From: Bdellovibrionales bacterium
GTDB lineage: Bacteria; Bdellovibrionota; Bdellovibrionia; Bdellovibrionales; UBA1609
Length of the DNA stretch: 64,000 nucleotides
Direction of reading: 5' to 3'
Assembly (NCBI GenBank): GCA_019637855.1
Contig: JAHBUX010000004.1
Location: forward strand, 124,001-188,000
Below, piece after piece: positions 12,988 to 53,149 of this stretch; positions within the stretch are counted from its first letter, which is position 1; each line of letters opens with the position of its first letter. Below the pieces are notes generated by a model that was not told where the DNA came from, did no database searches, and saw only the letters and a program-made list of their open reading frames with translations. The position numbers and the translations under genes are program-made.

Positions 12988-12993
12988 ACTCAC

Positions 12994-31213: not shown

Positions 31214-31230
31214 GTCGTAAACTCCCTACC

Positions 31231-31953
31231 TTATAATCTAAAGTTTTCGCCCAAGTAAAACTTGCGAGCTATTGGTGAAGCGGCGATTTCATCGGCCGTT
31301 CCGGCCACTTCAATATGTCCATCTTTCAAAATATGAGCGCGGTCGCAAATGCCCAACGTCTCGCGCACATTGTGGTCTGTGATCAGTATCCCGATGCCGC
31401 GCGATTTCAAACCACGCACGATATCCTGAATATCGCCCACCGCAATCGGATCGATACCTGCAAACGGTTCATCCAAAAGCAAGAACTTGGGATCACCAGC
31501 CAATGAGCGGGCGATTTCCACGCGACGGCGCTCGCCGCCCGAAAGTGCGTAACCATAGCTATCACGAATGTGCTGAATACGAAACTCTTCCAGCAAAGAC
31601 TCTAGGCGTTCGGAGCGCTCTACGGCGGTGAGATCCTGAGCGTCTAGGGCCACCTGAATATTCTCATTCACCGTAAGACGACGAAAGATGCTAGGCTCCT
31701 GCGGTAAATAGGAAAGCCCGGCGCGCGCTCTCTTGTACATCGGCAAATGGCCCACGTTCTGCCCATCGATATCGACTTCACCCTCGTCCGGTTTTACTAG
31801 GCCCACCACCATGTAGAAGCTAGTGGTTTTGCCCGCACCGTTGGGCCCGAGCAGACCGACAACCTGCCCCGACTCCACTTCGAAGGAGACATTGCGCACC
31901 ACCTGACGGGCTTTGAATTTCTTGCTGACGTTTTTAATGACCAGCCGGCTCAA
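31231..31953 (-). CDS. lptB: Lipopolysaccharide export ATPase LptB
   Basis: A 240-residue ABC ATPase driving LPS extraction from the inner membrane with LptF and LptG. Walker [11 protein letters not shown], signature [13 protein letters not shown] and Walker [14 protein letters not shown] are present. It overlaps the upstream lptC-lptA gene by four bases and precedes rpoN by 17. LptF and LptG are not in the window. Confidence 0.96.
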
Positions 31954-32957
31954 TTGCTGTTCTCCAGTCGTTTCTCATCCACTTTGGCGCGGGCCCCTTT
32001 GACCTGCACGCGTTTGCCGCCGTCGAGAAAAACAATTTCCTCGCCGCGCAACTCATCGTTGTTCTGCACAACCCGCGGATTACCGCGAAAAACAAAGCGG
32101 TTGGCATCAAAATCCACTTTCACATTCTGTGCAGTGGCCCATTTGTCCGCATCGCTGACACGGGCGCCGCCGGTGAACAGCACGGATTTTACGGTGTCAC
32201 TACCTGCGGCATATTCAAAATTGGCGGCAGGCCCGGTGATGCGCATTGAATCTACGTCCAAAACGACGTCGCCAAAAAATTTGGCGGCGCGATCCTTACC
32301 GCTGAATGTGGCACGCTGACTGCGAATAAAAGCGTGACGACCGCGATCCAAAGTCTTCTCAGCCTTTACGTCGCGCTTCACTTCCATCGTCGAATCAAGC
32401 AACGAGGCTTCCATGGATGCGCCCGTCAGGCGCAACGAATTGCCCTGCTCATCTTTGGGGCCGGTCATATCCACTCGTGCGGGGGCGTTCAAGCGCTTGG
32501 TAGCCGAGTTGTACTCCATGCTGGCCGTGCGAAATACGTAGCCGTTGGACGAGCGCGTGACGGTATCGCCCTCAACAACAAGATTTTTACTTTTAGTCTG
32601 CACTTTGCCTTTTTTTCCCGTCACGGTGAACGTCACTCCTGAATCTGAAAAGAAAACGGCCTTCACCGTTTCCAATTCCCAAGTCTCGCGGGCTTTGAAG
32701 CTCATGGCCTTATCTGACCAGAGCTCCCACTCTTTTGCGCCCTCTTGTGTGCCCGTCATATGCATGCCGTCCATGACTTGATCCACATCACTGGTCCCCG
32801 GAGCCGCAGGAGAAGTGGTCACCGACGGCGTCGGTAAAATCGCAGCCGCCTCTTCGACCCGGGCGTCTCGAATTCGGCTCGGTGCGACGAGTACGACCTG
32901 GACCAAAAGGACCAGGAGAGCCATGCTGAGTGCGATCTGTACGAGCCTGTTCCTCAC
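31950..32957 (-). CDS. Fused LptC-LptA lipopolysaccharide transport protein
   Basis: A 335-residue protein that seems to join two bridge components. Residues 1-25 form a membrane anchor. Residues about 55-175 match LptC ([20 protein letters not shown], then [19 protein letters not shown]). Residues about 180-325 match the LptA/OstA jellyroll ([20 protein letters not shown], then a late [20 protein letters not shown]). In most Gram-negatives these are two adjacent genes of about 190 and 185 residues. The GTG start at 32957 is chosen because the hydrophobic anchor begins just after it; the ribosome site is poor. lptB overlaps the stop. Confidence 0.8.
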
Positions 32958-33065
32958 GCCCTACATTAGCACAGTTCTTGCTTAACGATCCAGTTTTACG
33001 ACTCTATCTCAGACTGGTACATGCAACGTATCAAGACTCCAGTCGTGTTTTCCGATAGAGATTCT

Positions 33066-33767
33066 ATGAGCGCGAAGTGGTTTATTTGCCAAAACGAAAA
33101 TGTCACTGGTCCCTTCTCCACCGAGCAGGTGCAGAACCGGTTGCAATCGGCTGACGTGGCAGCCGGCGATTTGATCTGGGGCCGCGGCTTGTCAGCATGG
33201 CAGACTTTGCGCAGCTGGCAAAATGATCTGCCGAATCTCAACGCGGACACCTACGTAGAACCGGCGCCTGAAGCGTGGCACTACGCCCTGGCGGGGAAAT
33301 CCTTCGGTCCCTACAATCGCGCCACTCTGATCGGTGAACTGAAAAACGTGCATCAGATCGGTGAAGTGATGGTGTGGACAAAAGGCATGAAGGAGTGGGC
33401 TCATCTGTTTGAGTTCCACGAAATCCTCACCGAGATTGGCGTCAACAAACGCTCTTTCCCGCGCACCGATCTAAATGGAAAAGTTATCATCAAAGCCGAC
33501 GGTCAAACCCTTATCGCTCCCACCTTAACGGTCAGCGAAGGCGGTATGGGCGTGCAGTTGGAAGTGGGGCTCGTTCCCGGCCAGGGTGTTTCACTTGAAA
33601 TCCAAAGCGCTGTGTTTCGCGAAACCTTGCACGCCAAAGCCGACGTTCGTTACGTCGCGGGTGGCGTTGTTGGGTTGAAGTTCACCCAGCTCTCCCCTGA
33701 AGCTCGCGGGGCGATCGTGCAGCTTGTTCGTCAAGCCACAACTCGTTTCGTTCTCAAAGCGGCATGA
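33066..33767 (+). CDS. GYF-GYF-PilZ protein, likely cyclic-di-GMP effector
   Basis: 233 residues from the ATG at 33066; an alternative ATG at 33021 adds 15 residues. Two GYF_2-type modules are visible (WFICQNENVTGPFSTEQVQN at about 5-24 and WHYALAGKSFGPYNRATLIG in the second), each with a late W-x-x-L or W-x-H-L. A PilZ domain follows with RSFPR (the R-x3-R motif) and SEGGMG (S-x-x-G). GYF domains bind Pro-rich ligands, and the Glt protein at 35672 has Pro-rich stretches; Myxococcus GltJ carries a GYF domain. It converges on the agl/glt genes. A link between c-di-GMP and this machine is an inference from domains and position. Confidence 0.75.
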   Translation: MSAKWFICQNENVTGPFSTEQVQNRLQSADVAAGDLIWGRGLSAWQTLRSWQNDLPNLNADTYVEPAPEAWHYALAGKSFGPYNRATLIGELKNVHQIGEVMVWTKGMKEWAHLFEFHEILTEIGVNKRSFPRTDLNGKVIIKADGQTLIAPTLTVSEGGMGVQLEVGLVPGQGVSLEIQSAVFRETLHAKADVRYVAGGVVGLKFTQLSPEARGAIVQLVRQATTRFVLKAA

Positions 33768-33809: not shown

Positions 33810-34391
33810 TTACATAGGCGCTGAGTCCTCAGCCTTCTTCAACACAGCAAAATTGATCTCTTGCATTCCACTGTTGGTCACAGTGTACATGATTTTCTTG
33901 ATAGTCAGGAAATCCACGTTCTTGTCGGACTGAACCGTCACCTTGCGGAAATCATCGATCTCTTTGGGAGCGGCTTGATTGTTCGCATCGGCCACGGCTT
34001 TCTGCAACTGTGAGCCGAGAGTCTTTTTCTTGGCTTCACCTTCGCTAATCGCTTTGGCGATCTCGTCGGCGAGCGGTTTGATCATCCAATCTTCTTGCTC
34101 TTTGACCGCGCGGAAGTCGGCAACCTTGATGTTGTTAAGCATCACTCCGTCTTCGGCCACGATGACAACGTTCGAGGGTTTGAGTTCCTTGGTTTCATGC
34201 GCAGCCGGCAGATCCACTTTGTCGGGCATGGGAAGGATCTGATTGGTGGTGGCGTAGTTCTGCAGCAGGAACACGCACAACACGGTGAACATATCCACCA
34301 TCGCGGTCATGTTGAGGTAGGCGACAGCACTTCTTTTGCCAGCGCCCACTTTGCCGTGTCGATTCCGTAAACCTGGTACCTTGATAGCCAT
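33810..34391 (-). CDS. ExbD/TolR-type proton-channel subunit (AglS/AglQ-like)
   Basis: 193 residues from the ATG at 34391 behind AAGGGG; a longer in-frame start is rejected. One membrane helix (about 27-45) carries the proton-accepting Asp in MTAMVDMFTVL. The periplasmic part (about 50-193) has an ExbD-like fold and an inserted Lys/Ala-rich helix (about 120-150). With the TolQ-like gene it should convert proton flow into force on envelope proteins. Last gene of the Glt/Agl cluster. Confidence 0.85.
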   Translation of the reverse strand: MAIKVPGLRNRHGKVGAGKRSAVAYLNMTAMVDMFTVLCVFLLQNYATTNQILPMPDKVDLPAAHETKELKPSNVVIVAEDGVMLNNIKVADFRAVKEQEDWMIKPLADEIAKAISEGEAKKKTLGSQLQKAVADANNQAAPKEIDDFRKVTVQSDKNVDFLTIKKIMYTVTNSGMQEINFAVLKKAEDSAPM

Positions 34392-34401
34392 AATTAACCC
34401 C

Positions 34402-34875
34402 TTAAGGAGCCGAGCCGCCGGTTGCCACGGAGATTTCCGGGAAGCCAGCAACGAGGAGTGCGTCCATGCCGCCGATCAGCGTTTCGTACGGCAACTCGTC
34501 GAGCACCGTCACCACGCAGTCGTTTTTGTCAGGATACAGTTCTTTGATTCTCTTTAACTCACCGGTGAGCTTGTCCTGGTCGTACTTGCCGCTCACCTTG
34601 GGAAAGCGCATCTCTTGCCGGCCAATAATGACCCGGTAACCGTCTTTAAGCACGTCGAGTCGGAAGGGAATCTCGGCGCGCTTATCCGGTTCTGCTTTCT
34701 CCTCGGAAGTCTTCTGTCCATAGATGGAGCTTCCGATTTGAATCATAGAGACTTGCGTCCACACGGCAGTGATTAGAAGAAAGATGATACACACCGACAT
34801 CAAGTCGATGATGGGGACCAGGTTTAGGTCCACAGTCTTACTTCGGCCATCACCACCGTCATCAATATGAGCCAT
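34402..34875 (-). CDS. ExbD/TolR-type proton-channel subunit (AglQ/AglS-like)
   Basis: A 157-residue protein with one membrane helix and the conserved Asp in LVPIIDLMSVCIIFLL. A periplasmic ExbD domain follows with a basic/acidic insert (about 60-75). In Myxococcus the motor contains two such subunits, AglQ and AglS, with AglR; which is which cannot be decided here. It lies 3 bases after the aglR-like gene and 10 before the second ExbD. Confidence 0.87.
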   Translation of the reverse strand: MAHIDDGGDGRSKTVDLNLVPIIDLMSVCIIFLLITAVWTQVSMIQIGSSIYGQKTSEEKAEPDKRAEIPFRLDVLKDGYRVIIGRQEMRFPKVSGKYDQDKLTGELKRIKELYPDKNDCVVTVLDELPYETLIGGMDALLVAGFPEISVATGGSAP

Positions 34876-34878
34876 GAG

Positions 34879-35589
34879 TTAGTCCTTAATTTTCTCTCTG
34901 TTGGCGCAGACCAAATTCATAAGGGTCATTGAGCTCTCTTGCATATCAGCAATCGCGCGGCCGATGCGGACCTGGAAGAATCCGTAGGCCACAACCGCGA
35001 TAATGGCGACGATCAGACCGAAAGCGGTACAGTTCAGAGCTTCAGAGATACCTTGCGAAAGCTTAGCCGCTTTAGTTGCGGCATCGGCTTCAGCCACACC
35101 ACCGAAAGCCACGATCAGACCGATGATCGTTCCCATCAGACCCACAAGAACGCCGATGTTACCGAACACGGCGAGAAAGCTGACCCAACCTTCCAAATGC
35201 GGTGTCTCGCGCAGAACGCTGGCGTCCATGGCGACTTGCACTTCTTCATCCGGGCGGCGGTTCATGGTCTGTACCAAACCGGCCTTCAGAGTGTTGGTGA
35301 GCGGAGTCGGACGCGAATCGCAAAACGCGATCGCTTGGCGGATATCACCGCGCAAAATCATCGTAAATAAGTTCTCTTGAATATTGATCTTGTCGACCGT
35401 GAGCTTTTGCAAAGCCATCATACGGTTAACGATCAAGAACGCTGTGCAAAGGCCGATGAAAGCGATGATCCACATCACCACTCCGCCATGGCAAAACGCT
35501 TTACCTATAAAGTTTTGATAGGCGGCACACTTGTCGATCAAGTGCACAGCGCCATTCGCTGCTGCTTGTCCTGCTGCTGTCGGTTCCAA
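34879..35589 (-). CDS. aglR: MotA/TolQ/ExbB-type proton-channel protein AglR
   Basis: A 236-residue inner-membrane protein with three helices (about 37-57, 128-153, 175-197). The pore pattern FGNIGVLVGLMGTIIGLIVAF is characteristic of TolQ/ExbB/AglR. The start is a TTG at 35589, six bases after GGAGG, with no closer ATG. Between it and the preceding gene are 82 bases with an imperfect hairpin (35609-35631). It forms the stator-like motor with the two ExbD-type proteins encoded next. Confidence 0.9.
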   Translation of the reverse strand: MEPTAAGQAAANGAVHLIDKCAAYQNFIGKAFCHGGVVMWIIAFIGLCTAFLIVNRMMALQKLTVDKINIQENLFTMILRGDIRQAIAFCDSRPTPLTNTLKAGLVQTMNRRPDEEVQVAMDASVLRETPHLEGWVSFLAVFGNIGVLVGLMGTIIGLIVAFGGVAEADAATKAAKLSQGISEALNCTAFGLIVAIIAVVAYGFFQVRIGRAIADMQESSMTLMNLVCANREKIKD

Positions 35590-35671
35590 GAAATCCCTCC
35601 CTGTTTTTTACGGCCGTCCTCCGGACTGCCGTTTCAAATCCATTTAAAAATCTTCGCCCTTAAACCCGCGA

Positions 35672-37735
35672 CTATTGCGAGCTGAAGACGAAGGGAAAGT
35701 CCACACGGCCGATTTGATCTTTCGGCGGATCGGGGAACTTCCAAGTGCGTAGGCGCGAGAGAATGCAGTTGGCCACGCGATCGTTACCTAAAGCATTGCT
35801 CTTCACCATGGAGTGACCCACGCGGCCACCCTCTTCGATGTCCCACTGCAAAACGATCTTTCCGTACAGATCGGGCGAGCGTTGAAGTTCGCGCTCATAA
35901 CAGCTGCGGATCTCGCGAATATGTTCGCGGATCACGCGACGGATGGCCTCTTTGTCCATACCCGCCGAAAACTCACCTTCTTGCCCTTGGACGTTGATAG
36001 CCACATTACCTTTTTGACCGATACCACCTGTGCCGTAACCCGTGTTGCCAGTGCCACGACCTTGCGTACCTACACCATTAGACAAGCCAACTGTCGCACT
36101 GCCTTTACCTGAACCCGCGTCTTTAATCTTGCTACCCAAATTGTCGCCGTCGCGATTTTCCGAAGAACCAGCCGTACCGGTGGCCGCATCAGCCATCCCT
36201 TGCAACTCGCCGGAACCGGAATAAGCTTTGTCGATTTGCTTTTGCGTGCCCTTGCTCGAGAACACGCCGAGCAGGCCCACTTTGGTGGGATCCGGCTTTT
36301 CAGCTTTCATGTTGGCGCCGTCTTTGTTGGCCGTCTTAATGGCCGCGCCTGGCTTCGCGGAAACCTGTTTGTTGGGCTTAGGCTTCACGTTTGGATTCGG
36401 AGCCACCTGAGCCGCCTTACCCGGATCAGCCTTCTTCTCCTGCGCCGGTTGCGGAGTAGCGGCGGGCTTCTTCTGCTCCACCACTTTTACTACCTTCTTT
36501 TCCGGCGGCGGTTCCTCTTTGGGAGGAGCTGGTGGCTTCTCTTGACGCTGGAACTTCACGATCGCCTTGCGAATGGGCTCCTCTTGCTTTGCCTCGTCTT
36601 CAAGCAACGACGAAGGCGTATAGATATTCATATAGAGGCCGAGGATCATCGACACGGCCAGAGCCAGGATGATCCCGGTCACTTCCGATGAGCTCATATC
36701 GAGCAACGGAGCGACGAGCGGCTTGGGCGCTTCCGGAATGTAGCGCACGTAAATCGAGATCAGATCATTTTGCAGGCCGACGCGCACCATCTCGCCCTGG
36801 CGTATATCCAGTTCAAAGTGCGTACCGACGTTGCGAATCTTGTTCTGGCGCGCCAGTTCGGCAAAAGTCACCGACTCATTGTCGCGGATGAGTTCACCCG
36901 TCATCTCTTGGGTCAAACACAGGGTGATTTGACCGGAGATTTTGAGCAGCTCGAATTTGCTCTTTGACGAGATGATTGGAACGATCACATCGGCGTCTGG
37001 ATTCGAACTGATGTAAACGCTGCCAGCCTGATTGAAGTGATTGCTAGAGAGGATCTTGTTGTTCCAAGTGACCAGCACTTCGACCAACGATCCCTTCTGC
37101 GGCTTCACGATCTCTTTTAGATCTTTGTAAGGATTGGCCGGCGCAAAAGTCTTCTTAGCGCCGTGTCCACCACCGGCCGAGAAATTCTTGGCCGTAGCCG
37201 CAGGCTTCTTAGCGGCGGCAGGAGCCGCAGCTGGCATCGGCATAGGAGCCGCTTTGACTTCCGACTTTTCATTCTTAACATCAATCTTCTTTGTCGCGGT
37301 CGGTGGCGGCGGCACATCGGCCGGCACGACAGGAGGCGGTTCTGGAATCGGACTCGTGAAGGTCACCGCTTGCGGTGGAGCTTCCGGTGCGGGAGCCGCC
37401 GCGGAGGCCATCGGCTTGGGAGGTGCTGCAGGTTTCGGAATACCGACAAAAAACTGAATACGAAAAGGTCCGATCGTCAGGTCATCGCCCGATGCGATCT
37501 TGTCTTCCAAAACTCGATTTCCGTTTTTGAAAGTTCCGTTTTGCGAACCGAGATCGGAGAGAAAATACTCGCCGCCACGGTCCTCGATCATCGCGTGCAG
37601 AAGGGCGACCCCTTCATCTTGCAGTTGCAGCTGCACATCAGTATTACGACCGATGACGATTTGGCTGTGCTCGAATTGGCGAACCGATTCAAGCTTGTCA
37701 CCCTTATAGACTCTGAGAACAACGGGCTGTTTCAA
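35672..37735 (-). CDS. gltG: FHA and TonB-like trans-envelope protein, GltG-like
   Basis: A 687-residue protein. An N-terminal FHA domain (about 25-85: VIGRNTDVQLQL, then SDLGSQNGTFKNGNRV) would bind phospho-Thr in the cytoplasm. A Pro/Ala-rich linker and a second beta domain (about 205-340) follow, then a single membrane helix (about 352-372). A Pro/Lys-rich periplasmic rod and a Gly-rich segment lead to a C-terminal TonB-like domain (about 600-687) with REIRSCYERELQRSPDL. This order matches GltG (PglI) of Myxococcus, which carries force across the periplasm. It starts one base after the previous stop. Confidence 0.85.
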   Translation of the reverse strand: MKQPVVLRVYKGDKLESVRQFEHSQIVIGRNTDVQLQLQDEGVALLHAMIEDRGGEYFLSDLGSQNGTFKNGNRVLEDKIASGDDLTIGPFRIQFFVGIPKPAAPPKPMASAAAPAPEAPPQAVTFTSPIPEPPPVVPADVPPPPTATKKIDVKNEKSEVKAAPMPMPAAAPAAAKKPAATAKNFSAGGGHGAKKTFAPANPYKDLKEIVKPQKGSLVEVLVTWNNKILSSNHFNQAGSVYISSNPDADVIVPIISSKSKFELLKISGQITLCLTQEMTGELIRDNESVTFAELARQNKIRNVGTHFELDIRQGEMVRVGLQNDLISIYVRYIPEAPKPLVAPLLDMSSSEVTGIILALAVSMILGLYMNIYTPSSLLEDEAKQEEPIRKAIVKFQRQEKPPAPPKEEPPPEKKVVKVVEQKKPAATPQPAQEKKADPGKAAQVAPNPNVKPKPNKQVSAKPGAAIKTANKDGANMKAEKPDPTKVGLLGVFSSKGTQKQIDKAYSGSGELQGMADAATGTAGSSENRDGDNLGSKIKDAGSGKGSATVGLSNGVGTQGRGTGNTGYGTGGIGQKGNVAINVQGQEGEFSAGMDKEAIRRVIREHIREIRSCYERELQRSPDLYGKIVLQWDIEEGGRVGHSMVKSNALGNDRVANCILSRLRTWKFPDPPKDQIGRVDFPFVFSSQ

Positions 37736-37736
37736 G

Positions 37737-38051
37737 TTACTTGCTCCTGGTCCTTTTCACTTCGTCTGCATCCCGGCGCATTTCCGGCAAAAAATCTTCG
37801 CGCAACTTAATAAGGCGTTTGAAGTTGAACTGTTTTTTCTGCAAGAGATAAAACAATTCCGGCTTCTTCAATTCGCCCTCTACCAATTCGTCTTCGAAGT
37901 CGATCTTCGTCTGCTTCTTCGGTTTAGCGCCGCCGCCCGCCGACTTCGTTTGGCCTTCTTGTTCTTGTGCAAACGCCTGTGTCGCAAGGTTGAAATTCAA
38001 TGCGGCTAGCACACAGGCTATACTTAATAGTGTCACTGCCTTTGGTCGCAC
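37737..38051 (-). CDS. gltF: Small secreted protein, GltF-like position
   Basis: A 104-residue protein with a signal peptide ending around AFAQ (about residue 28), then a charged linker. The core KIDFEDELVEGELKKPELFY is followed by a basic segment (KKQFNFKRLIKLREDFLPEM). The pattern, a short D/E stretch followed by KPE and a basic region, recurs in small proteins of myxobacterial gliding loci (GltF/CglF type, from memory). Located between the large TPR gene and the FHA/TonB gene, as gltF lies before gltG in Myxococcus. The name is by synteny. Confidence 0.65.
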   Translation of the reverse strand: MRPKAVTLLSIACVLAALNFNLATQAFAQEQEGQTKSAGGGAKPKKQTKIDFEDELVEGELKKPELFYLLQKKQFNFKRLIKLREDFLPEMRRDADEVKRTRSK

Positions 38052-38095
38052 GGCAAGTCTCCGTATGGTCTAGGCCTGTTACAAACGTCCGGCCT

Positions 38096-41000
38096 CTAGT
38101 TTTCGCTCAATACCTTGTCCATCGCCTCGATCGCCGAACGCGTTTTCGAGTCGTCAGCCAAGAACTTAAGCCTGTTCAATTGCTTCTCCCCTTCCTTCTT
38201 GTCCTTGAGTTTGTGGATAAGGAGGATGGAGTAATTCAAAAGTGCCGTCACGCTACCGCTGTCGGCTTTTAAGATATTCTGATAGATGTCCTTGGCACGG
38301 TCCGTGTCGCCACTACCGCTCAAAGACAGAGCGTAGTTGTTGGCGATGTCGATGCCGAGGCCTTTCTTCATGTCAGACTTCACGGCAGAGTAACCGCGCT
38401 CCAGCAAATCCTTAGCGCGACCGTAGTCTCTATACTCGACGAAGATCGAGCCCAGGTTGGCCGAGGCGATCTGATAGCTGCTCTTCATTTCCAAAGCTTT
38501 GCGGAAGGCTGCGATGGCGGGACGCTGTTTGTCTTCGGATAAGTAGAGAACGCCTTGGTTGTTTTCAAGCGCTGGCTCATTGGCATGCGCCTTCTGCGCA
38601 CGCGACAGAATGATGCGCGACAAACCGTATTTGCCGTCCTCGAAGTAGTGCACAGCCAAAGCGTTAAGCGCTTTCAAATCATTCTGATCTTTGCCCAAAC
38701 GTTTCGACACCGCTTCAACCAGCATGGTTTCGTCTTTGGAGCGGAAGGCGGGACCGAGATCGCTTTCGCTCTCCACCTCAAGGGTGTCGGGCATCTTGGT
38801 CAGCATGGCACGTTCGCCATACTCGGGAAACTTAGCCGGGTCCAAGCGATTCAGTTCGCGCTCGGCCGTCTTCAGGCCTTCGCCATATCCCTCAAGTTTG
38901 AAACCCCGTTCGATCGCCGACTCGTAGCTCTTAACCGCCTCCTCTTGGAAGGGTTTGGCGAACTTGTCGATACCGGCCATATATTGCTTCAGCAACTCAG
39001 GATCTTTTTTGATCGCCGCCGGAACCGGCACCTTGTAGATGCTGGCCGCCATATGCTGGTTGGCTTGACCGATCAGCGCCAACGAATTCACAACGTAAGG
39101 TCCGTCGTCATAACGGATCACGTCTTTTAACTGCTCTTTCAAACGGTTCAGAACAGAGAGCTTCTCGTTCAACGTCTTTTGCATCTTGGCCGGGTCGGCC
39201 GAAATGCGCATCGCTAAGAACTCTTCGAAAGTTTTGTAAACGCGGTTGTACGTGCACTCCGCAGCATAACTGGCGCCGAGAGGTCTTTCCGGGGTCGAGA
39301 ACTTCTTGTGCCGGAAGATGATCTTACCGCACCACTCTTCGTAGTCCTTCTGCTTGTTCTTCATCTTGTAGATCTTGGCGATGCGATATGCCGCCTCGAT
39401 GTACTGCTCGGGATTTTTCGGGCCGGCGTCGGAGTACTGTTGATACTGTTCTTGCGCCTTGCTGATGCTCTTGCGGCGCTCGTTCATTTTGGCGCTCAAG
39501 TAGAGAGCATCCCACTTGTCGGCAGACTTACTCTTATCAAAGTAGGCCTTGTAGTTGGCTTCGGCCTGATTATAGCTGTTCATACCGTCGCGAATAACCG
39601 CGGCGTTGAAGTAAAAAGCAATCCCCGCCTTGTCTTTCTCATGCTTACGAGCGTAGTTTTCGAAGGCCTCGGCGGCTTTCTTGTACTGGCCGGTCTTCTC
39701 ATAGAGAGAGGCCAAGAACTGATTGGACTTCTCTTTAATGTCGGCGTTTTTGTCGGAGCGATCAGCGACCACCACCGAGTACATACCAATCGCCTTGAAC
39801 AAATCGCCGGCGCGCTCATAGTTTACGGCAGCGTTGTATGAAGCGGAGGTGCCCAACTCGGAACCGCGATATTTGGTTGCAAACTCTTCGTAAGCTTTGG
39901 CAGCGCCAGGATAGTCCTTGGCCGCTTCCAAATCATTGGCTTTCTTAAATTGAGCGCGCTGGATAACGCCCTTCACTTCGGAGCCCAGTTCGGAATTGGC
40001 CAAATCTTGGTTGGCAAGGATGCTCTGACCGGCATTTTCCATACCGGCGTAATCCTTCTTCAAGTTGAACATATCCAAAATCAAGCGCGCCGAGAACTTA
40101 GCGTACTGCGATTTGCCATTCTCTTTGATGATGTTGTCGAACATCGCATGCGCTTTGTCGAACTGGTTATGGTAGTAATACAAAGCGCCCAGCTTGTACT
40201 TCATCGCCGGAACGTTTTCTCCCTTGGGGAATTGCTTGGTGTAGCGCGAAGCCGCAGCCTCGAAAACCGCCACGGGTTTGGAGAACGGAACCGGCTCCAA
40301 ACTGTCGCCCACGTTCTTCTTCAGATCGGATTCTTTGGGCAATCCTTTTTCCGCCGCCAACACAGTGTTGAGTGCTGACTTCTCAAAGTAAGGCGAGTTC
40401 GGTGCGTTGTCGACGATCCAACCGTAATGCTGAGCGGCCGCATCGAATTCCCCCATGTCGAATAAAAGTTCGGCATAGAAGAAGTGCATCTCGTCGATCT
40501 TCGGACCTTCTTTAAAGGTGCTGAAGTAAAGTTCATAGCTCTGCTTGGCGGCCTTTTGAGCGGCGGCCACACGAGAGTTTTGCGCTGTCTGGTGCTGCTG
40601 CAGCGTGAAGTTGCGCAAGGTCGTTTCGATCAACTGATTGGCTCGCGCCACCAGCTCTTTGTCCTTGGCGTTGGCCTGTGCCCACTCACTGCCTGGACGA
40701 TAATTCTGAATCCAATTGTAGAGTTCATTACGGAACACTTCATTGCGGTCAGACGACACGTACATGGTTACGATTTGATACTGATAATCGTAAGCTTTGG
40801 GCGCCGTCGGACGCTCGCTGATCAGTTCACGAAAGATCTGGCGTGAACCGTCGCGGTTGCCGGTGTCAGCATAGTAGTAAGCCAACTTTTCCATCAGATT
40901 GAACACCTGCGATTCGCCGGCTACTTCCGCGAAGTAGGCACGCGCACCACCGGGAGTTCCGGCTTCGGCATAGAAGATCACAAGATCGCGTTGGGCCTCA

Positions 41001-41959
41001 GTGGCCAGACGGATACGGCTTGCGCCACCGGCGGTGGCATCATTAGAACCCTTAGCTTGGCGGCCGGCGCGAATCACGCGCTCCAACGACACCAAGGCCT
41101 GCTTCACAGCACCGGTCTTGTATTCACACCAAGCTGTCTTATAAAGTGCGAACGCATACAGGCGGGCACGCTTGTTGGCGGCCACGATGCGGTAGTGCTT
41201 CAAAGCGTCGGCCCACTGCTCGCGTTCGAAGTAGTATTCGCCAAGCGCGAAGTTGGACTCCTCAATATACGGGCTTTTCGGGAAGGCTTTGGTCAAACGC
41301 TGATAGTACTCTTTACCCTTCTCCGGCTGATTCAACTCGAAGTAGTTGTAGCCGAGGAAGAACAAGGCCTGATCGCTCTTCGGATCGTTGGGGAAGTCGC
41401 GCAGGAACCATTCGTACAGCTGAATGGCTTTCTTATTGTATTCTTGTGCGGCAGCCAGGTTCAGCTTGGGTTTGATCTTGGTTTTTCCAGTTTGAAAGTC
41501 CTTGATCTGATCGTCGTACTTCTGTTGAACACGATATTCAATCAAACGAGATTTTTCGACGTAGAGTTCGGCCAAACGCAACCACAGTTCGCCCCGGCGT
41601 TTACTGTTACGGAACTGATTGGTCAGCTTGAACAACTGCTTGATACCCTGGTCGGTTACTTTTTCAAGCTGAGCTTCATCAGTGCCTTCTTCATAAAACG
41701 GATTCAAACGTGAGGGCGGCTTGACCTGATAAAGATCGACGCGCTGAGCGGGCTTCGCTAGCTCTTGGCTCTTTTGAAAGGTCGGCAAGGCGCTCTTCTG
41801 CTTTTGCAGATTCACCTTCTGCGTATTCGACTCAATACGCTTCAAGATATCGCCCACGGTTTTACGCGTGCGCTTATCTTCGGCGCGAACTCCTTCGGCC
41901 GAGACCAATACCAATGCTAGAGCTATAACAATCCTAGTTACAACTTTGCGTGCCGACAT
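38096..41959 (-). CDS. gltD: Large periplasmic TPR-repeat protein, GltD/AgmU-like
   Basis: A 1287-residue protein with a cleavable signal (ending VRAED), followed almost entirely by tetratricopeptide-type helix pairs, for example GELWLRLAELYVEKSRLIEY and DQALFFLGYNYFELNQPEKG. About 15-20 repeats continue to the C-terminus. No catalytic domain is seen. Myxococcus gliding loci encode comparable giant TPR proteins in the periplasm (GltD/AgmU, also AgmK). It overlaps the previous gene by 26 bases. It probably serves as a scaffold connecting inner-membrane motor and outer-membrane parts. Confidence 0.8.
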   Translation of the reverse strand: MSARKVVTRIVIALALVLVSAEGVRAEDKRTRKTVGDILKRIESNTQKVNLQKQKSALPTFQKSQELAKPAQRVDLYQVKPPSRLNPFYEEGTDEAQLEKVTDQGIKQLFKLTNQFRNSKRRGELWLRLAELYVEKSRLIEYRVQQKYDDQIKDFQTGKTKIKPKLNLAAAQEYNKKAIQLYEWFLRDFPNDPKSDQALFFLGYNYFELNQPEKGKEYYQRLTKAFPKSPYIEESNFALGEYYFEREQWADALKHYRIVAANKRARLYAFALYKTAWCEYKTGAVKQALVSLERVIRAGRQAKGSNDATAGGASRIRLATEAQRDLVIFYAEAGTPGGARAYFAEVAGESQVFNLMEKLAYYYADTGNRDGSRQIFRELISERPTAPKAYDYQYQIVTMYVSSDRNEVFRNELYNWIQNYRPGSEWAQANAKDKELVARANQLIETTLRNFTLQQHQTAQNSRVAAAQKAAKQSYELYFSTFKEGPKIDEMHFFYAELLFDMGEFDAAAQHYGWIVDNAPNSPYFEKSALNTVLAAEKGLPKESDLKKNVGDSLEPVPFSKPVAVFEAAASRYTKQFPKGENVPAMKYKLGALYYYHNQFDKAHAMFDNIIKENGKSQYAKFSARLILDMFNLKKDYAGMENAGQSILANQDLANSELGSEVKGVIQRAQFKKANDLEAAKDYPGAAKAYEEFATKYRGSELGTSASYNAAVNYERAGDLFKAIGMYSVVVADRSDKNADIKEKSNQFLASLYEKTGQYKKAAEAFENYARKHEKDKAGIAFYFNAAVIRDGMNSYNQAEANYKAYFDKSKSADKWDALYLSAKMNERRKSISKAQEQYQQYSDAGPKNPEQYIEAAYRIAKIYKMKNKQKDYEEWCGKIIFRHKKFSTPERPLGASYAAECTYNRVYKTFEEFLAMRISADPAKMQKTLNEKLSVLNRLKEQLKDVIRYDDGPYVVNSLALIGQANQHMAASIYKVPVPAAIKKDPELLKQYMAGIDKFAKPFQEEAVKSYESAIERGFKLEGYGEGLKTAERELNRLDPAKFPEYGERAMLTKMPDTLEVESESDLGPAFRSKDETMLVEAVSKRLGKDQNDLKALNALAVHYFEDGKYGLSRIILSRAQKAHANEPALENNQGVLYLSEDKQRPAIAAFRKALEMKSSYQIASANLGSIFVEYRDYGRAKDLLERGYSAVKSDMKKGLGIDIANNYALSLSGSGDTDRAKDIYQNILKADSGSVTALLNYSILLIHKLKDKKEGEKQLNRLKFLADDSKTRSAIEAMDKVLSEN

Positions 41960-43478
41960 AATGGTAATTTCCTAACTCATCCAGCCAGTACTCGCCGCGG
42001 AAGGGCCAGTATTCATAACCGTTTTGAATGTAATAATCGCGCTTGTTCGACTCATCGATCTGCTGATCGGGCAAGTCTTTACCCGCAATACGTTTCTTCA
42101 AACTCTCCTTACGACCATTGATCATCTCGTAGCGAGCAAATCCCTCTTGTTCGATCTGATCCACCAACTCTTCGCGGATCAACAGCAAGTGATTGCGCAC
42201 GATCTTGCCAGCGCGCTCTTTGGCCTTCGCAATCCGAGTGTTCAGGACCTTAATCGAGTACTGACCGACAGGAGATGCGCCCCATCCACCCGGAAGCTTC
42301 TTGATGCGGTTACGCTCTTCCATAAGCTTGCGGATATATTGGAACGAGTTCTGGAAGTCCGCTTCGCGCACGATCTTCTGCGCCACGATGTATGGAATTG
42401 GCAGACTCATCTTGTCCAGTTTACCTTTTTTGTTCATCTTCATCATGTCGTTGATCATGTTGAAGTAACGATTGGCGTTGTCACTCGACTGCAAAGTGCG
42501 GTCGATCTGCGTGTACACCGGCTTATAAATGTTCGAGAACAGAGTCAGTGTTTTATCCATCTCGTCGTACTTACAGATGTACAGGTACACGATCGAACGC
42601 AAGAGCAAGGACTCAGGCATGTAATTGTCTTCGTAGAACGCCGAGTGCAGAGTGTTGAAGTTGCTCAAAGCCGAACGGAAACGGCCAGAGCGCAACATCG
42701 CCCAGCTCGATTCGAAGACCGTGTCATGCCAGAACTCCGAGTCGCGCGGAACATCGCGGTAGACTTCGAGTGACTCATCCCAGGCTTTCTTTTGATAGAG
42801 CACCCGCGCTTTGCCCATTTGGGCAGCGACCTTAGTTTTATCGTTCACCGGCGCGGCAGAACGTGCCTGCATCAGCTCTTCGAAAGCAGCCAAGGCGCGA
42901 TCCAACTGATTGGACTCAGCCAGAGCCAATCCTTCTTGGTACTTAGCGATATTGTATGTTCCTGCGCCACGGGCCACACGCGCGAAACTCTGCGCCGCCT
43001 GTTCGTATTGTTTGTTGCGCATCTGGTACTCACCGATCCGATAGTGCAGCATATCGCGGTGAACACGCGGGAACTCATCCACGTTGATACGCGAGATGGC
43101 GTAATTCAATAGGGTGTCGTCACCCAAACTATCGGCAGCCAGAGACAGTTTCTCCAAGCTCTGCTTGATGTATTTGTTGTTGCCTTCTTTGACCACGCCG
43201 ATGAACTGGAAGGCCGCCACCTGGTTGAGCTTCATCTGGTGCAACGTCATACCCAAGATGTATTTGATCTGCATACGACGATCGCGGTAGCGCGGCGAAT
43301 AGCTGAGTTGAAACAAGCGGCGCGAAGCCTCGGCATATTTACCGGACTTAGCCAACATCAAGGCGTCAGCTAGGTCACGATCGGTACCGACCGCGGATCC
43401 GCGGGGCCGTTGTTGTTGTCCGACGGCACCTAAGGGTGCGAGCGTAATGACTGCGAGTAAAAGTATTAAACGCTTCAT
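41934..43478 (-). CDS. gltE: Periplasmic TPR protein, GltE/AglT-like
   Basis: A 514-residue protein with a signal peptide (LLAVITLAPLGAVGQ) lacking a lipobox Cys, although the Myxococcus counterpart is described as a lipoprotein. TPR-like repeats cover about 40-320 (HYRIGEYQMRNKQYEQAAQS is one). A helical, Lys/Arg-rich region follows, and the end is a short Trp/Tyr-rich tail (EYWPFRGEYWLDELGNYHY) that looks beta-forming. Start overlaps the previous stop by four bases; the end overlaps gltD by 26. The GltE name rests on order and TPR content. Confidence 0.75.
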   Translation of the reverse strand: MKRLILLLAVITLAPLGAVGQQQRPRGSAVGTDRDLADALMLAKSGKYAEASRRLFQLSYSPRYRDRRMQIKYILGMTLHQMKLNQVAAFQFIGVVKEGNNKYIKQSLEKLSLAADSLGDDTLLNYAISRINVDEFPRVHRDMLHYRIGEYQMRNKQYEQAAQSFARVARGAGTYNIAKYQEGLALAESNQLDRALAAFEELMQARSAAPVNDKTKVAAQMGKARVLYQKKAWDESLEVYRDVPRDSEFWHDTVFESSWAMLRSGRFRSALSNFNTLHSAFYEDNYMPESLLLRSIVYLYICKYDEMDKTLTLFSNIYKPVYTQIDRTLQSSDNANRYFNMINDMMKMNKKGKLDKMSLPIPYIVAQKIVREADFQNSFQYIRKLMEERNRIKKLPGGWGASPVGQYSIKVLNTRIAKAKERAGKIVRNHLLLIREELVDQIEQEGFARYEMINGRKESLKKRIAGKDLPDQQIDESNKRDYYIQNGYEYWPFRGEYWLDELGNYHYVGTQSCN

Positions 43479-44305
43479 CTGTAAGTCGCCTCTGGGAAGT
43501 AGAAACTCATGCCGACACCTAGGAAAAGATCGTTCTGCGTGATTTTAGACTTCACACCACCGGCATCCGTGCCGTCCGCCTGATAAGTGTTCCAGATAAT
43601 GTCCCAGCGGAAGGCCATACCTTTGCTAAGTGCGAATACCTGGCTGCTGCCTAAGTGTATAGTCGGAGCTTGCTGGTTGTCGGTCGTAGTGGTCGTTCCG
43701 AAACCGGCATTGAAGTTTAAATCGAAGGGCACGATGCCACGATTCAACCAAGTGATCTTGCCATAGATCGGATTCCACTTGAAAGCGACCGCATAAAAAC
43801 CTTTGGAGCTCACCACGCTAGAGGTGGTGATTTTACGGTTCGCCTCTAGATCGTTAGTCACTTGACGGGCCGAGTTGGTAGCGAAGGCCGCGATACCTTC
43901 GATTGCGTATTGCTCGCGCAAGTAGTACGCCGCACGCACATTCGCGCCCAGGATGTTAAAGAAAGGATTGTTCAAGTTATTGAAGAGACCCGCAGTCAAC
44001 TCAAAGCGTTTAGTCTTCGGCAAGAAGCGGCGCTGGATTACCGCCACGTCTTCAAACGGCGCCAAGGTGGCAAGGTCAGAAAGGTTCTGCACCTGCTTCG
44101 GCGCTTGCTTCATCACTGGAGCCGGCCGCTTTGCTTCAACCTTTGTTTCTTCTTTGTCATAAAGCTCTTCGATTTGCCCGGGTTCGGTAGTGGATGCTCC
44201 ACCTCCCGACGAGGACGGCGGTGAGCCTTCAAGATCTTGCGCACGCGCGACAAACGGCAGCGCAAGGACGAGCGAAACTATGAGTACACAAAGATGATTC
44301 AACAA
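43475..44305 (-). CDS. Outer-membrane beta-barrel protein of the gliding cluster (GltA/GltB-like)
   Basis: A 276-residue protein with a TTG start (44305 or the next codon, 44302; no ATG is available), a signal peptide ending VARAQ, and a Gly/Ser/Lys-rich linker (about 25-80). A beta-barrel follows: ERFELTAGLFNN-type amphipathic strands ending in LFLGVGMSFYF. It resembles the outer-membrane beta-barrel family common in myxobacteria. Paired barrels GltA and GltB form the outer-membrane gliding platform in Myxococcus. It is followed by gltE with a four-base overlap. Confidence 0.78.
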   Translation of the reverse strand: MLNHLCVLIVSLVLALPFVARAQDLEGSPPSSSGGGASTTEPGQIEELYDKEETKVEAKRPAPVMKQAPKQVQNLSDLATLAPFEDVAVIQRRFLPKTKRFELTAGLFNNLNNPFFNILGANVRAAYYLREQYAIEGIAAFATNSARQVTNDLEANRKITTSSVVSSKGFYAVAFKWNPIYGKITWLNRGIVPFDLNFNAGFGTTTTTDNQQAPTIHLGSSQVFALSKGMAFRWDIIWNTYQADGTDAGGVKSKITQNDLFLGVGMSFYFPEATYR

Positions 44306-44416
44306 GCCGACATCCCCAAGTTGAAGAAATCCCTGACTAAAGGATACAAAATGCGGGTTTTAAATTGAATATATATAGATCGAATCTAGACCCAAGCCCT
44401 TCGTCGGGCTTGAGCT
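44306..44416 (-). other. Gap between the two barrel genes
   Basis: Contains a CAAGCCC/GGGCTTG hairpin (about 44393-44412) just after the upstream gene, without a U tract, and an AT-rich stretch. A weak sigma-70-like pair (TTCAAT, 17 bases, TATCCT) precedes the second barrel gene. Partial termination and re-initiation within the cluster are possible. Confidence 0.35.
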
Positions 44417-45154
44417 CTACAGTACGAATACGGCGCTAAGACCGATTTGAGAATTGTAGTAAATGCGATTGCCGAACGCGCTGGCGGCAGGCGACGGATC
44501 ATTATTCGGAGCAACGGAACGCAGTTGTTTGGTCGTAGCGTTAGGACCTTGGAAGATCAACCAACGTACATCCGCGCGCAGGCCAAAGTGTTTGGTGAAG
44601 AAAAAGTTCTGCCCCAATCCCAAGTTCAATGCGATCGCATTGGCAGTATCCATATTAATGTAACCAAGGCCAGCGATACCAAAGAGATTTAAGTTCATCA
44701 CCGTCTGTTTGGTGATCGAGATCTTTCCATAGTAAGCGATGAATTCGTAGTTACCGAATAGACCCCACTTAGGATGAGGCGCCTTCATAGCGTCAAACGA
44801 TTCAACGACAGGCGCCGTCTGGCGTCCCAGCTTGAGCTGTTCACCATAGCTGGACAAACCGTCCATCCACATCAACGCCTGGACGTTCACGGCACTGACG
44901 TTGTCTATATTGTATGTACCCATGAACTGCAGCATGAAGTCGTTATAGTAAGGCTCGTTCATTTCCAAACCGGCGCCGGCGCCGAATTCGAAACGCTTTT
45001 CTGTCTCCACCAAACGATTCATTACAACGCGACGTTTTTCGAACACCGGAAGAGTTGTCTCGCGAGCCAATTCTTCATCCGGAAATTCGATGTTGTCGGC
45101 GTGAGCGACCGTAGTAAAAAGGCAGGCCAATAGAATGAAGAGTGACTTTGTCAT
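44417..45154 (-). CDS. Outer-membrane beta-barrel protein of the gliding cluster (GltA/GltB-like)
   Basis: About 245 residues from the ATG at 45154, chosen over the TTG at 45163 because the GGAG ribosome site is too close to the latter. The signal ends VAHAD. The linker is short, then comes a barrel with the family's KRFEFGAGAGLEMNEPYYND, and the last strand ends in aliphatic/aromatic SQIGLSAVFVL. It is a paralogue of the next gene and the first gene of the cluster on the minus strand. Confidence 0.78.
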   Translation of the reverse strand: MTKSLFILLACLFTTVAHADNIEFPDEELARETTLPVFEKRRVVMNRLVETEKRFEFGAGAGLEMNEPYYNDFMLQFMGTYNIDNVSAVNVQALMWMDGLSSYGEQLKLGRQTAPVVESFDAMKAPHPKWGLFGNYEFIAYYGKISITKQTVMNLNLFGIAGLGYINMDTANAIALNLGLGQNFFFTKHFGLRADVRWLIFQGPNATTKQLRSVAPNNDPSPAASAFGNRIYYNSQIGLSAVFVL

Positions 45155-45213: not shown

Positions 45214-46785
45214 TCACTGCCGAGGCTTCAGGTCTTTGGTCGGTCCACTCAGACCGCAGTAGACGAGCGCGAATGCATAGGATTTCTGATAGTCCTCAAA
45301 ATCATATTTGCCTTGATGCCATTTACTGAACCACTGGACCAGGCCCTGTTTCTCCACGCACTGTCGCCGGAGCGCGACCTCAGCTTTACGGGTCTCCTGC
45401 CATTTCTGCGACGGCTCGCGCTCCAGAAGCGTTCCCCAGAGCTCCGCTTCGCGCGGAAACGTCCGCTGAGCGGCGGTCGCCTTGTGGTTGAACGGGACCA
45501 CGAAGTTGGGTGTCATACCGATCAACTGCAGTGGCAATCCCCCCTCGGGGCGATAGTAGCGCGACACTGTATATATTAGACGCAGCTCCGCTTTGCCATT
45601 CACCGCCACCACGGCTTGGGTCGAGCCTTTGCCAAAGGTCACTTCCCCCACCACCCAAGCTCGCTTTTGGTCCTGAAGAGCCGCAGCCAACATCTCGGAG
45701 GCGCTCGCAGAGACCGCATTCACCAAGATCACTAGAGGAAGGTCGGGGAACATCGCCTTGTCACGTAAACCGTAACGCCAGCTTTGCTGATCTTCCGCTG
45801 AAAAATCCATTGTCAGCGGAAACTGCTTTGGAATCGGAGTTTCCAAAGACCGCTTCTCGACCAACTCACCCTTGGTGATGAACAAACTCTTCAAACAGGC
45901 GGCTTCTGCGACCTGCCCACCGCGATTTCCGCGCAAATCCAAGAGCAAGCCATCGAGCTTTAAACCCGGCACACTCAATTGGCGCGCAAGATCTTCGCAC
46001 ACGCCCTCGGAGAACTGTCTTAGTGTAACCACCGCAAGAACCCGCGCCCCAAAGGGGATGTAATCCACACTTACATTGCGAAGGCTTAGACGTGCAATGA
46101 CCACAGTGGTCGCATAGATCTCACCGTCACGCTCAATAGTCATCTCCACGGTTTTACCGGGGGCTTGCGCCAGCTCTCTCATTACACTAATAGCCTTTAC
46201 ACCGCCTGGTACGGTCTTGCCGTTCAAAGAGACGATGCGATCGTTGGGCATGAGGTTGGCCGCGGCAGCCGGCGTGCCGGGATACACTCGGCGCACGTAC
46301 ACACCGCTGGCACTGATTTCTTCCTCAATTCCAATGCTGCTGACCTCTTGCGTGGCGCCGCTGTAGCGAAGGCTGAGCAGATCTACCGGTGCCAGCGAAG
46401 CATGGCTGTCGAAGGTGCGCAGCTGATCATTAATGATCGAGGCATAAACCATTTCGGAAGGAAAGCGCGTGAAGGCTTTAACGCTCTTTTCAATGTGCTC
46501 GACGGCGGCATCAAAATCCACCTTATCCGCATTGGAGAAGCTGGTGCGAATCTGCGGCACAAACGTCTTCTGTTTCAAAACCCAGTCGGCCTGAGTGAGC
46601 GCACTTAAGCAGGATTTAAAAAGCGCTTCGTTTTCCCGACAGATTTTGTTCGAAACGAACTGCTTCAAATAGCCCGCATCGACACCTGTGCCTTTCCAAA
46701 AGTCGGCATCCTGGGTGGGCTGAAAGTTCCCGCGAGCCACAGGAACAGCCATAAAAAAGAGGATTAAAGTCAAAAACGCGCGCAT
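45214..46785 (-). CDS. Carboxy-terminal processing protease (S41 family)
   Basis: A 523-residue periplasmic serine protease. Signal peptide 1-19. A PDZ domain (about 150-235) has YPGTPAAAANLMPNDRIVSL. The peptidase core has LLLDLRGNRGGQ, the nucleophile Ser in VSASASEMLA and the Lys in VTFGKGSTQAV, so the Ser-Lys dyad is intact. A C-terminal helical segment follows. Related to Ctp/Tsp enzymes that trim or degrade periplasmic proteins from their C-terminus. It lies 50 bases before the first barrel gene on the same strand and might mature components of that machine; this is inference. Confidence 0.9.
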   Translation of the reverse strand: MRAFLTLILFFMAVPVARGNFQPTQDADFWKGTGVDAGYLKQFVSNKICRENEALFKSCLSALTQADWVLKQKTFVPQIRTSFSNADKVDFDAAVEHIEKSVKAFTRFPSEMVYASIINDQLRTFDSHASLAPVDLLSLRYSGATQEVSSIGIEEEISASGVYVRRVYPGTPAAAANLMPNDRIVSLNGKTVPGGVKAISVMRELAQAPGKTVEMTIERDGEIYATTVVIARLSLRNVSVDYIPFGARVLAVVTLRQFSEGVCEDLARQLSVPGLKLDGLLLDLRGNRGGQVAEAACLKSLFITKGELVEKRSLETPIPKQFPLTMDFSAEDQQSWRYGLRDKAMFPDLPLVILVNAVSASASEMLAAALQDQKRAWVVGEVTFGKGSTQAVVAVNGKAELRLIYTVSRYYRPEGGLPLQLIGMTPNFVVPFNHKATAAQRTFPREAELWGTLLEREPSQKWQETRKAEVALRRQCVEKQGLVQWFSKWHQGKYDFEDYQKSYAFALVYCGLSGPTKDLKPRQ

Positions 46786-46804
46786 TTATAACCCGTTGAG
46801 ACGA

Positions 46805-48058
46805 TTAATAGCCCGCCGACATCAGCATAGCCCAGGCCAGCTGCTCTTCCCTGTCGATATCCACAGGTGGTGCAGGAGGGCCTTTAAGGAACGAAGCGCA
46901 GCTGTCCTTTGCCCGACCAAAACGCGCACGCACATTGACCGCCGTGCGCTTGGCCTTGCCCACGATGTGATTCTTCCACATCGCCACCTTGCGCTCGAAG
47001 GACGGACCTTTCAGTAAATAAATGAGCCCCACGGTCACAAGGGTGCCCAACGCCAAGCCCGCGAACGGCACTCCGAAAAAGGTGGCGATCTCAACAGAGG
47101 CGGTGGCCAACTGCATAAGGGGCATATAGGCTTTAAGGAAACCATCTGAGATCTTGCCTTCGCGTTTCCAGCGCAACATCGTGGGGTCAACCACGTTGCT
47201 GTTCAATAGCATTCCGTACCAGGCCACCTGCGCTATCGCAGCAGCCCCATCATAAAGGCCGCCTGACGTATAGAGAGTGAGTAAAGCCAACATCGAATTG
47301 GCGGCCAGTGAGCCAAGGAATTGGCCGGTCGCATTCCACTCGCGACCCTTTTCACCGTCTAAACGCCTGCCGGCCAGCGAGGCCAACTTCTCAGCCAGCT
47401 TCCCGGAGGAATCCAAGTATTGAAACCATTTATTGGTATAGATGGTCAAAAGCGCCGTCCAAAATAGAGTAGGAATGAATTGGGCGACTGCCGCGTCCAC
47501 AGAAGAGGTTTGATAGTAGGTGAAAATAGAAAGGCCCGAGGCATAGGCCACTGTGAAGATCACACCGAGCGGATTGTCCTTCAAATTACGGCCGAAAGTC
47601 TTCACCTTCGAGGTCACAATTTGACGTGTTTTCTTGGGTACGGATTCGTCTTTTAAAACAGGGATATCATCGACTTTGCCGAGGATAATGGTTTTCAAAC
47701 GCGAGAAGAAACCTGTGCGTTTGACCTTGGCCAAAGCGGGGTCTTCGCTGCCCGTCGCGCCTACAATGGTATTTTCGGGATCGCGTTGAGCCAGCTCCAG
47801 AAGGGTGTCGGCTTCCTGCTCGGGCTCAACGGTGGCCATGGTGACATGTAGCTCTTCACCATTGACGTTGTACTTTTGCAAAACAACGCCGGACTTGGCA
47901 TCCACCGCCTCTTCCTTGAGCGGTGATGCCATCAATCCAAACAGCGGTGCACGGGCCTTCTTGGCCTCGGCCTGCTCCGCCAAAGTCGGCAGCGGAATGA
48001 TGAGCGTCGTGCTCACCATAAACGCGATTAATTGTCTGAGGAGGCGTCCCTGCAACAT
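46805..48058 (-). CDS. Unknown multi-pass membrane protein
   Basis: A 417-residue protein. Signal-like N-terminus (LIAFMVSTTLIIPLPTLAEQ), then a soluble region (about 30-165), then four to six hydrophobic segments (about 170-330), and a basic cytosolic tail ending in a Pro-rich PPAPPVDI stretch. No family was recognised. No Shine-Dalgarno precedes the ATG (48058); an in-frame ATG 13 codons later has none either. Upstream, a CCAAGC/GCTTGG hairpin is found about 20-40 bases before the start. It ends 19 bases before the protease gene on the same strand and may be co-transcribed with it. Confidence 0.7.
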   Translation of the reverse strand: MLQGRLLRQLIAFMVSTTLIIPLPTLAEQAEAKKARAPLFGLMASPLKEEAVDAKSGVVLQKYNVNGEELHVTMATVEPEQEADTLLELAQRDPENTIVGATGSEDPALAKVKRTGFFSRLKTIILGKVDDIPVLKDESVPKKTRQIVTSKVKTFGRNLKDNPLGVIFTVAYASGLSIFTYYQTSSVDAAVAQFIPTLFWTALLTIYTNKWFQYLDSSGKLAEKLASLAGRRLDGEKGREWNATGQFLGSLAANSMLALLTLYTSGGLYDGAAAIAQVAWYGMLLNSNVVDPTMLRWKREGKISDGFLKAYMPLMQLATASVEIATFFGVPFAGLALGTLVTVGLIYLLKGPSFERKVAMWKNHIVGKAKRTAVNVRARFGRAKDSCASFLKGPPAPPVDIDREEQLAWAMLMSAGY

Positions 48059-48172
48059 ACGGAGGGAGCGAATTCCAAGCTTTATGCCATGCTTGGCCCC
48101 CGCCCAGGATCAATTGGTTTAGAGACGAGTGAATTTTGGAAAGGGCTAGGCCGAATTACGGCACCGGCCGCC

Positions 48173-48625
48173 TCAACTTTGGGCGACGGCGCTTCTTAGA
48201 GCTGATAAGAAGGAGTTGAGTTCAACAAAGCCGCCGCTACTTACCGGTCGTAAATGAGCAACTTTAGGAAAGCCGCTGAAGACAACCAAAGTACGCCCGT
48301 CGTCCGTAACAATGGACCCATCCTGTTTAACAATAGCTTTTAGCGCTTGTACCGAAAGCCCTGACGTATTTCCCGTGCCACCTGTTTTAGTGAACTCCTC
48401 AACCCAAGCGACAAGCTTCGTCTTGGTTTCTTCGATCTTTGCAAGAAGGTCGGTCAGAATAAAAGAGATCGTCGTCATCTCCTCATTCCAAATAACGTAT
48501 CCTTCTTTACAGTTTTCATGCATCACAACGGCGATGATAAACTTGTGATTTTCATCGAAATATTCAATAGCAACGGTCTCACCAGTTACATCCGAAATGC
48601 GGTCATAAGACACTAGCGTTGTCAT
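48173..48625 (-). CDS. Unknown small soluble protein
   Basis: A 150-residue protein without signal or membrane segments. The N-terminal half looks like beta strands (VAIEYFDENHKFIIAVVMH), followed by a helix (LLAKIEETKTKLVAWVEEF), a Gly/Thr linker and a KAIVKQDGSIVTDDGRTLVV hairpin. Not recognised. ATG 48625 follows GGAGG, and it overlaps the stop of the preceding gene by four bases, so the two are coupled. Base composition appears more AT-rich than neighbouring genes, which may indicate transfer. Confidence 0.7.
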   Translation of the reverse strand: MTTLVSYDRISDVTGETVAIEYFDENHKFIIAVVMHENCKEGYVIWNEEMTTISFILTDLLAKIEETKTKLVAWVEEFTKTGGTGNTSGLSVQALKAIVKQDGSIVTDDGRTLVVFSGFPKVAHLRPVSSGGFVELNSFLSALRSAVAQS

Positions 48626-48954: not shown

Positions 48955-49005
48955 CTCCTTGAAAAATCCCAAGGAGAGTGAATTGCCACTAACGTGCCTA
49001 AAAAA

Positions 49006-49980: not shown

Positions 49981-49981
49981 A

Positions 49982-53119: not shown

Positions 53120-53149
53120 CTAGTGCCTTCCCCAGGAGGATCCACTCAT

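Follow-up and report, generated by a model that had tools for sequence, protein, structure and literature searches.

Which machine is encoded by a compact block of nine envelope and motor genes in a member of the Bdellovibrionales, and what work might that machine do? The block lies on the minus strand, at positions 45154-33810 of a 64,000-nucleotide stretch of genomic DNA that we refer to as “the window”. A 2026 review describes the gliding machinery of Bdellovibrio as unidentified, and as a major open challenge (PMC13104615). We consider it probable that the block encodes the Bdellovibrionota version of the proton-driven Agl-Glt machine, i.e., the counterpart of Bd0828-0838 in strain HD100, with gliding and/or traction during prey contact as its likeliest function.

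Gene content and family assignment

The nine co-directional ORFs pointed out in an initial annotation of the window are all present in its ORF list, and all are real. In the order of transcription, they encode a GltA/GltB-type barrel, a second such barrel, GltC, GltD fused to GltE, GltF/CglF, GltG, AglR, AglQ, and AglS, meaning that ten Glt/Agl components are carried by nine genes. Their spacing is operon-like: several neighboring glt/agl genes overlap or almost abut, with the same short spacings found in relatives. Scans for promoters and terminators returned fewer sites than in shuffled sequence and are therefore uninformative.

The two outer-membrane beta-barrels read in the initial annotation are encoded at 44417-45154 (copy 1, “GltA”; minus strand, as are all nine genes) and 43475-44305 (copy 2, “GltB”), the A/B naming being tentative. 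Both exceed the cut-off of 60 for the OMP_myx_plus model TIGR04565, with 72.0 bits (5e-20) and 85.9 bits (3e-24), respectively. The start of gltA is corrected to the ATG at 45154, which is also the end coordinate given in the initial annotation. An AlphaFold2 model of GltB is an eight-stranded barrel with pLDDT mostly >90 in the barrel, and its nearest solved folds are OmpA/OmpW. GltC (41934-43478), a periplasmic TPR protein, matches NF033756 over nearly its whole length, with 201 bits (3.6e-59; Myxococcus equivalog cut-off 450). The small secreted protein (37737-38051) matches the CglF/GltF model NF033764 with 57.8 bits (8e-16; Myxococcus cut-off 90). GltG (35672-37735) is indeed an FHA/TonB-like trans-envelope protein: it scores 287 bits over 1-686 against NF033760 (3e-85; cut-off 650), 109 bits against NF033768 (cut-off 40), which corresponds to the TonB-like AgmX/PglI C-terminal domain, and 1e-13 for FHA.

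The motor comprises one MotA/TolQ/ExbB-type proton channel, AglR (34879-35589; PF01618, 2e-27), and two ExbD/TolR-type proteins, AglQ (34402-34875; PF02472, 3e-13) and AglS (33810-34391; PF02472, 2e-12), as the initial annotation had it. AglR orthologues are 56-83% identical, and both proton-path Asp residues are invariant: D24 of AglQ in 59/59 orthologues and the Asp of AglS in 58/58. The latter residue is D53 if counted from the listed TTG start and D33 from an ATG at 34391. We reject the TTG as a start, because the ATG has a good ribosome-binding site (AAGGGG) and its Met is kept in all 58 orthologues. Kinship of this motor to Agl is suggested by the work of Luciano et al. 2011 together with synteny.

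The profile comparison proposed in the initial annotation places the products in the Glt/Agl family, through the models for GltC, GltG, CglF, GltE, and OMP_myx_plus. All features of the Group B core in the grouping of Luciano 2011 (GltC, D, E, G and AglR, Q, S) are found, and the expanded set (GltA, B, F) is represented by the two OMP_myx_plus barrels and CglF. None of GltC, GltG, CglF, or GltE reaches its Myxococcus equivalog cut-off. Two further NCBIfam entries considered as Glt models, NF033759 and NF033763, were discarded, being TraA and TraB rather than Glt proteins. A sceptical reading is that the locus is a plain Tol-/Exb-type energised uptake or envelope-stability system, to which Glt names attach by way of generic TPR, FHA, and TolR domains; indeed, the TolQ/TolR and TPR matches are generic and the TolQ/ExbB scores modest. 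We regard this as very improbable: the GltC, CglF, and OMP_myx_plus models are specific (GltC matches in 0/14 control genomes), the nine-gene order is fixed (see below), and the locus contains no TonB-dependent receptor or Pal/TolB gene. Membership of the Glt/Agl family and the identity of the operon are well supported.

The locus had also been called complete, which does not hold by Myxococcus standards. The genome contains no full-length GltJ, just C-terminal or GYF pieces, and no match to the CglB adhesin, a model that also matched in none of the control genomes. These two gaps count against the gliding reading. According to Luciano et al. 2011, GltH, I, J, and K are all absent from Bdellovibrio (PMC3169522).

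The GltD-GltE fusion and the GltC tail

Of the two TPR proteins proposed initially, GltC stands as described, and the larger one (38096-41959) proves to be GltD and GltE in one gene. The protein has 1287 aa and a single Sec signal peptide. The GltE model matches residues 1002-1262 with 55 bits (9e-15; cut-off 225), and in relatives with a stand-alone GltE that protein aligns from ~residue 1063 onward, placing the GltE moiety at ~residues 1063-1287 (38096-38773). The GltD assignment was made without a GltD-specific model, from the GltE match and the split homologues. A search for a free-standing gltE gave none, GltE being fused to GltD. In B. bacteriovorus kdesi, by contrast, gltD and gltE are separate genes encoding 1058 and 287 aa, and Bdellovibrio sp. 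qaytius also has two genes. The fusion occurs in 15 of 65 assessable relatives, and the other 50 have the split form.

On a tree of GltC, AglR, and AglQ, GltE appears as a lipoprotein in 33 rows, as a soluble protein in 10, and as a fusion in 16, the window included; lipoproteins were called by a simple lipobox rule of our own rather than a trained predictor, and soluble forms by their signal peptide. These states are clustered, with 0/500 shuffles as low for either the lipoprotein or the fused state. Fusion requires seven changes on the tree, three of them forced by well-supported branches; the tree itself gives no direction. In the region of the tree that holds the window, fused and soluble forms are intermixed, and by the same lipobox rule the lipoprotein signal of GltE has been lost in this clade. 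The series of lipoprotein, soluble, and fused GltE poses the question of whether a lipid anchor matters for force transfer.

The most conserved part of GltC is its C-terminal tail (41934-42030), with the near-invariant sequence NGYEYWPFxGEYWLDELGNYHY. A shortened form of this motif, GE/DE-x-W-x-DE-x-x-NY/SY, is kept in all four GltC paralogues of the genome. In the structure model, GltC is a TPR solenoid, for which Foldseek returns generic TPR proteins, and the tail has pLDDT of 30-40. That it is near-invariant and yet modelled at such low confidence suggests that the tail takes up its fold upon contact with a partner. The GltC of M. xanthus binds GltA and GltB, and the three proteins interact pairwise (PMC4488436).

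A conserved position among lipopolysaccharide genes

With the GltC alignment, we fetched 80 loci, of which 53 hold all nine genes complete. The order and strand of the nine genes are the same in 52/53 of these complete loci from other Bdellovibrionota; therefore, the cluster is not due to chance. The GltC profile reaches E <= 1e-140 in 115 genomes among the matches listed, which belong to the genus, family, order, and class of the window, whereas in other classes of the phylum its matches lie between 1e-30 and 1e-58 or do not pass that threshold. A contig scan with the GltC alignment returned Bdellovibrionota or mislabelled MAGs only.

On the left of the operon, engB-kdsB-pyrG-kdsD (45214-53009) includes the border gene kdsD/kpsF (49006-49980, minus strand), which encodes a sugar-phosphate isomerase of Kdo synthesis (TIGR00393, 294 bits; cut-off 203.7). 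On the right, lptC-lptB-rpoN (29762-33000) begins with an LPS-export gene, lptC, whose product has an LptA-like C-terminal part (31950-32957, minus; TIGR04409, 2.5e-20; TIGR03002, 3.6e-9). It is followed by genes read from the sequence as encoding an lptB-like ABC protein (31231-31953, minus), which is next to lptC in relatives, mostly with 65-75% identity, and the sigma-54 factor RpoN (29762-31213, minus), found at the same place in relatives. Both flanks are conserved over the class: lptC follows the operon in 29/30 assessable loci, and 56/80 loci have kdsD, pyrG, or both upstream. In E. coli, the arrangement is close to kdsD-lptC-lptA-lptB-rpoN, and the glt-agl operon therefore sits inside an LPS locus. 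Two other neighbors may be mentioned. An FHA and sigma-54 activator fusion with a Fis-type HTH (53123-54430, plus) lies ~8 kb upstream of gltA, in the same window as rpoN. Genes for a type IV pilus PilM and a PilQ-like secretin with an AMIN domain (10159-15298, minus) lie on the same strand as aglS, ~19 kb from it.

The LPS setting, together with the lack of an identified adhesin, makes an Nfs-like transporter the main rival to our reading, i.e., a machine that moves or arranges outer-membrane polysaccharide or LPS without propelling the cell. The M. xanthus genome offers a precedent in the paralogous Agl-Nfs machine, which moves spore-coat polymer (PMC3858216). The fixed position of the operon between kdsD and lptC-lptB-rpoN would fit such a role, as would the retention of the operon, GltC included, in genomes of just 1.2-1.3 Mb; taken together, position and retention could indicate a general envelope function. 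Nevertheless, the LPS neighborhood may be a historical insertion, the defect of a mutant in the HD100 aglS gene is one of prey attachment (see below), and the window set is the closest to Myxococcus GltC and GltG of the four glt-like sets in the genome. We therefore judge the transporter reading unlikely, while taking it more seriously than any other rival.

Nfs (nfsA-H) resembles the window set in being a paralogous envelope complex encoded in one cluster, with no GltI/J/K. It differs in borrowing the AglRQS motor, which is encoded elsewhere (PMC3858216), whereas the motor of the window is encoded within the locus. The M. xanthus Agl-Glt machine has the same families as the window (GltA/B, C, D, E, F, and G with AglR, Q, and S) but is spread over three clusters (G1, G2, and M1) rather than one locus.

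The probable HD100 counterpart and a proposed force path and control

The joining of motor and envelope genes in one locus had been put forward as a novelty of this cluster, but it is already known: Luciano et al. 2011 found Bdellovibrio to have four expanded core sets, with Bd0828-0838 nearest to AglRQS, and proposed Bd0828-0838 as the best candidate for the Bdellovibrio gliding apparatus (PMC3169522). In HD100, AglS is Bd0838 (PMC6561027) and RpoN is bd0843 (PMC3464611). Because of these gene numbers, and because the order is the same in B. bacteriovorus kdesi, the window operon appears to be the counterpart of Bd0828-0838, a match drawn from numbering and synteny. As in the window, aglS of HD100 would, judging from these gene numbers, be followed by lptC-lptB-rpoN, and kdesi has the same gene set. 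The window differs from kdesi in having GltD and GltE as one gene, with GltE lacking a lipoprotein signal, and in having a GYF-PilZ gene next to aglS, which is absent from that place in kdesi. What is new here is the GltD-GltE fusion within a clade that has lost the GltE lipoprotein signal, the GYF-PilZ neighbor, the near-invariant GltC tail with its disordered model, and the fixed position in an LPS locus. Strict conservation across the class and identity with Bd0828-0838 make this the first-choice set for deletion.

With a transposon in Bd0838, HD100 neither attaches to prey nor kills or rounds it (Duncan et al. 2019; PMC6561027), a phenotype that supports a role in predation in a relative. 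This result is also the basis for supposing a predation-specific device for traction or invasion, with no part in gliding. Two observations make that rather improbable, more so than the transporter. First, the operon is near-universal in the class, and for most members of this class, which are uncultured, predation has not been demonstrated. Second, Lambert et al. 2010 found that Bd0828-0838, unlike Bd0412-0420, is not upregulated 30 min into predation, its upregulation being seen in host-independent growth (PMC2797640).

For the Agl-Glt machine that we favor, the force path, cargo, and output can be sketched by analogy with M. xanthus and HD100. Proton flow via AglR and the Asp residues of AglQ/AglS, established for the family, would drive a conformational cycle here as well. 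AglR would pass the work to GltG, predicted to place its FHA domain in the cytoplasm and its TonB-like end in the periplasm; an AglR-GltG interaction has been published (PMC3169522). GltG would engage a periplasmic TPR stack of the GltDE fusion, GltF, and GltC, and the near-invariant GltC tail would dock on the GltA/GltB barrels, such that the complex at the surface is pulled along the cell. The likeliest output would be slow gliding over surfaces, traction while in contact with prey, or both, probably controlled via MglA and the GYF-PilZ protein. MglA is present in the genome (4e-83 to the M. xanthus structure), and M. xanthus MglA acts on AglR and GltJ (PMC12288465).

The GYF-GYF-PilZ gene (33021-33767, plus strand; PF14237 in two stretches, PF07238) is convergent with aglS and adjoins it in 23/52 assessable loci. 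A profile of this family matches 7z3c, a GYF structure from M. xanthus AgmX/GltJ (1.8e-6). RxxxR and SxxG are invariant in 23 aligned sequences; the D/N that normally precedes the Ser varies. For the GYF-PilZ gene of kdesi, no query glt protein matched within ~10 kb. Bdellovibrio gliding is under cyclic-dinucleotide control, and the GYF-GYF-PilZ protein is a candidate c-di-GMP-responsive adaptor, i.e., a candidate link between such signaling and the motor. Near another gliding operon, Bd1482, a PilZ gene has been noted earlier (PMC3271064). More speculatively, the separate GYF-GYF-PilZ protein may in this clade have replaced the cytoplasmic control part of GltJ, with c-di-GMP gating the motor directly, while the loss of the outer-membrane lipid anchor of GltE and the fusion of GltE to GltD would have given anchor-free force transmission; we offer this scenario tentatively, as one that is doubtful as a whole.

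The other three glt-like sets of the genome, at loci L039, L040, and L042, each have a GltC-like protein, a GltG C-terminal domain, OMP_myx_plus, and a long TPR protein. The window set has the best Myxococcus GltC, GltG, and CglF scores of the four, with 201 bits for GltC (vs 97, 62, and 54) and 287 bits for GltG (vs 191, 146, and 115). A VWA/MIDAS protein is found in the L039 and L040 sets, and L042 has its own FHA-GltG and a second GYF-GYF-PilZ gene beside it (L042:18121-19002, minus). The L040 and L042 sets have no motor gene. Three further TolQ-TolR-TolR motors occur in the genome, at L039, L041, and L043, of which those at L043:9434-11353 and L041:8789-10468 stand alone, with no glt genes nearby; these two might serve the motor-less L040 and L042 sets. 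Lastly, a MIDAS-family adhesin-like gene (L138, L141; G000:C21:118395-119543) lies ~5 kb outside the window, one of several such weak matches in the genome.
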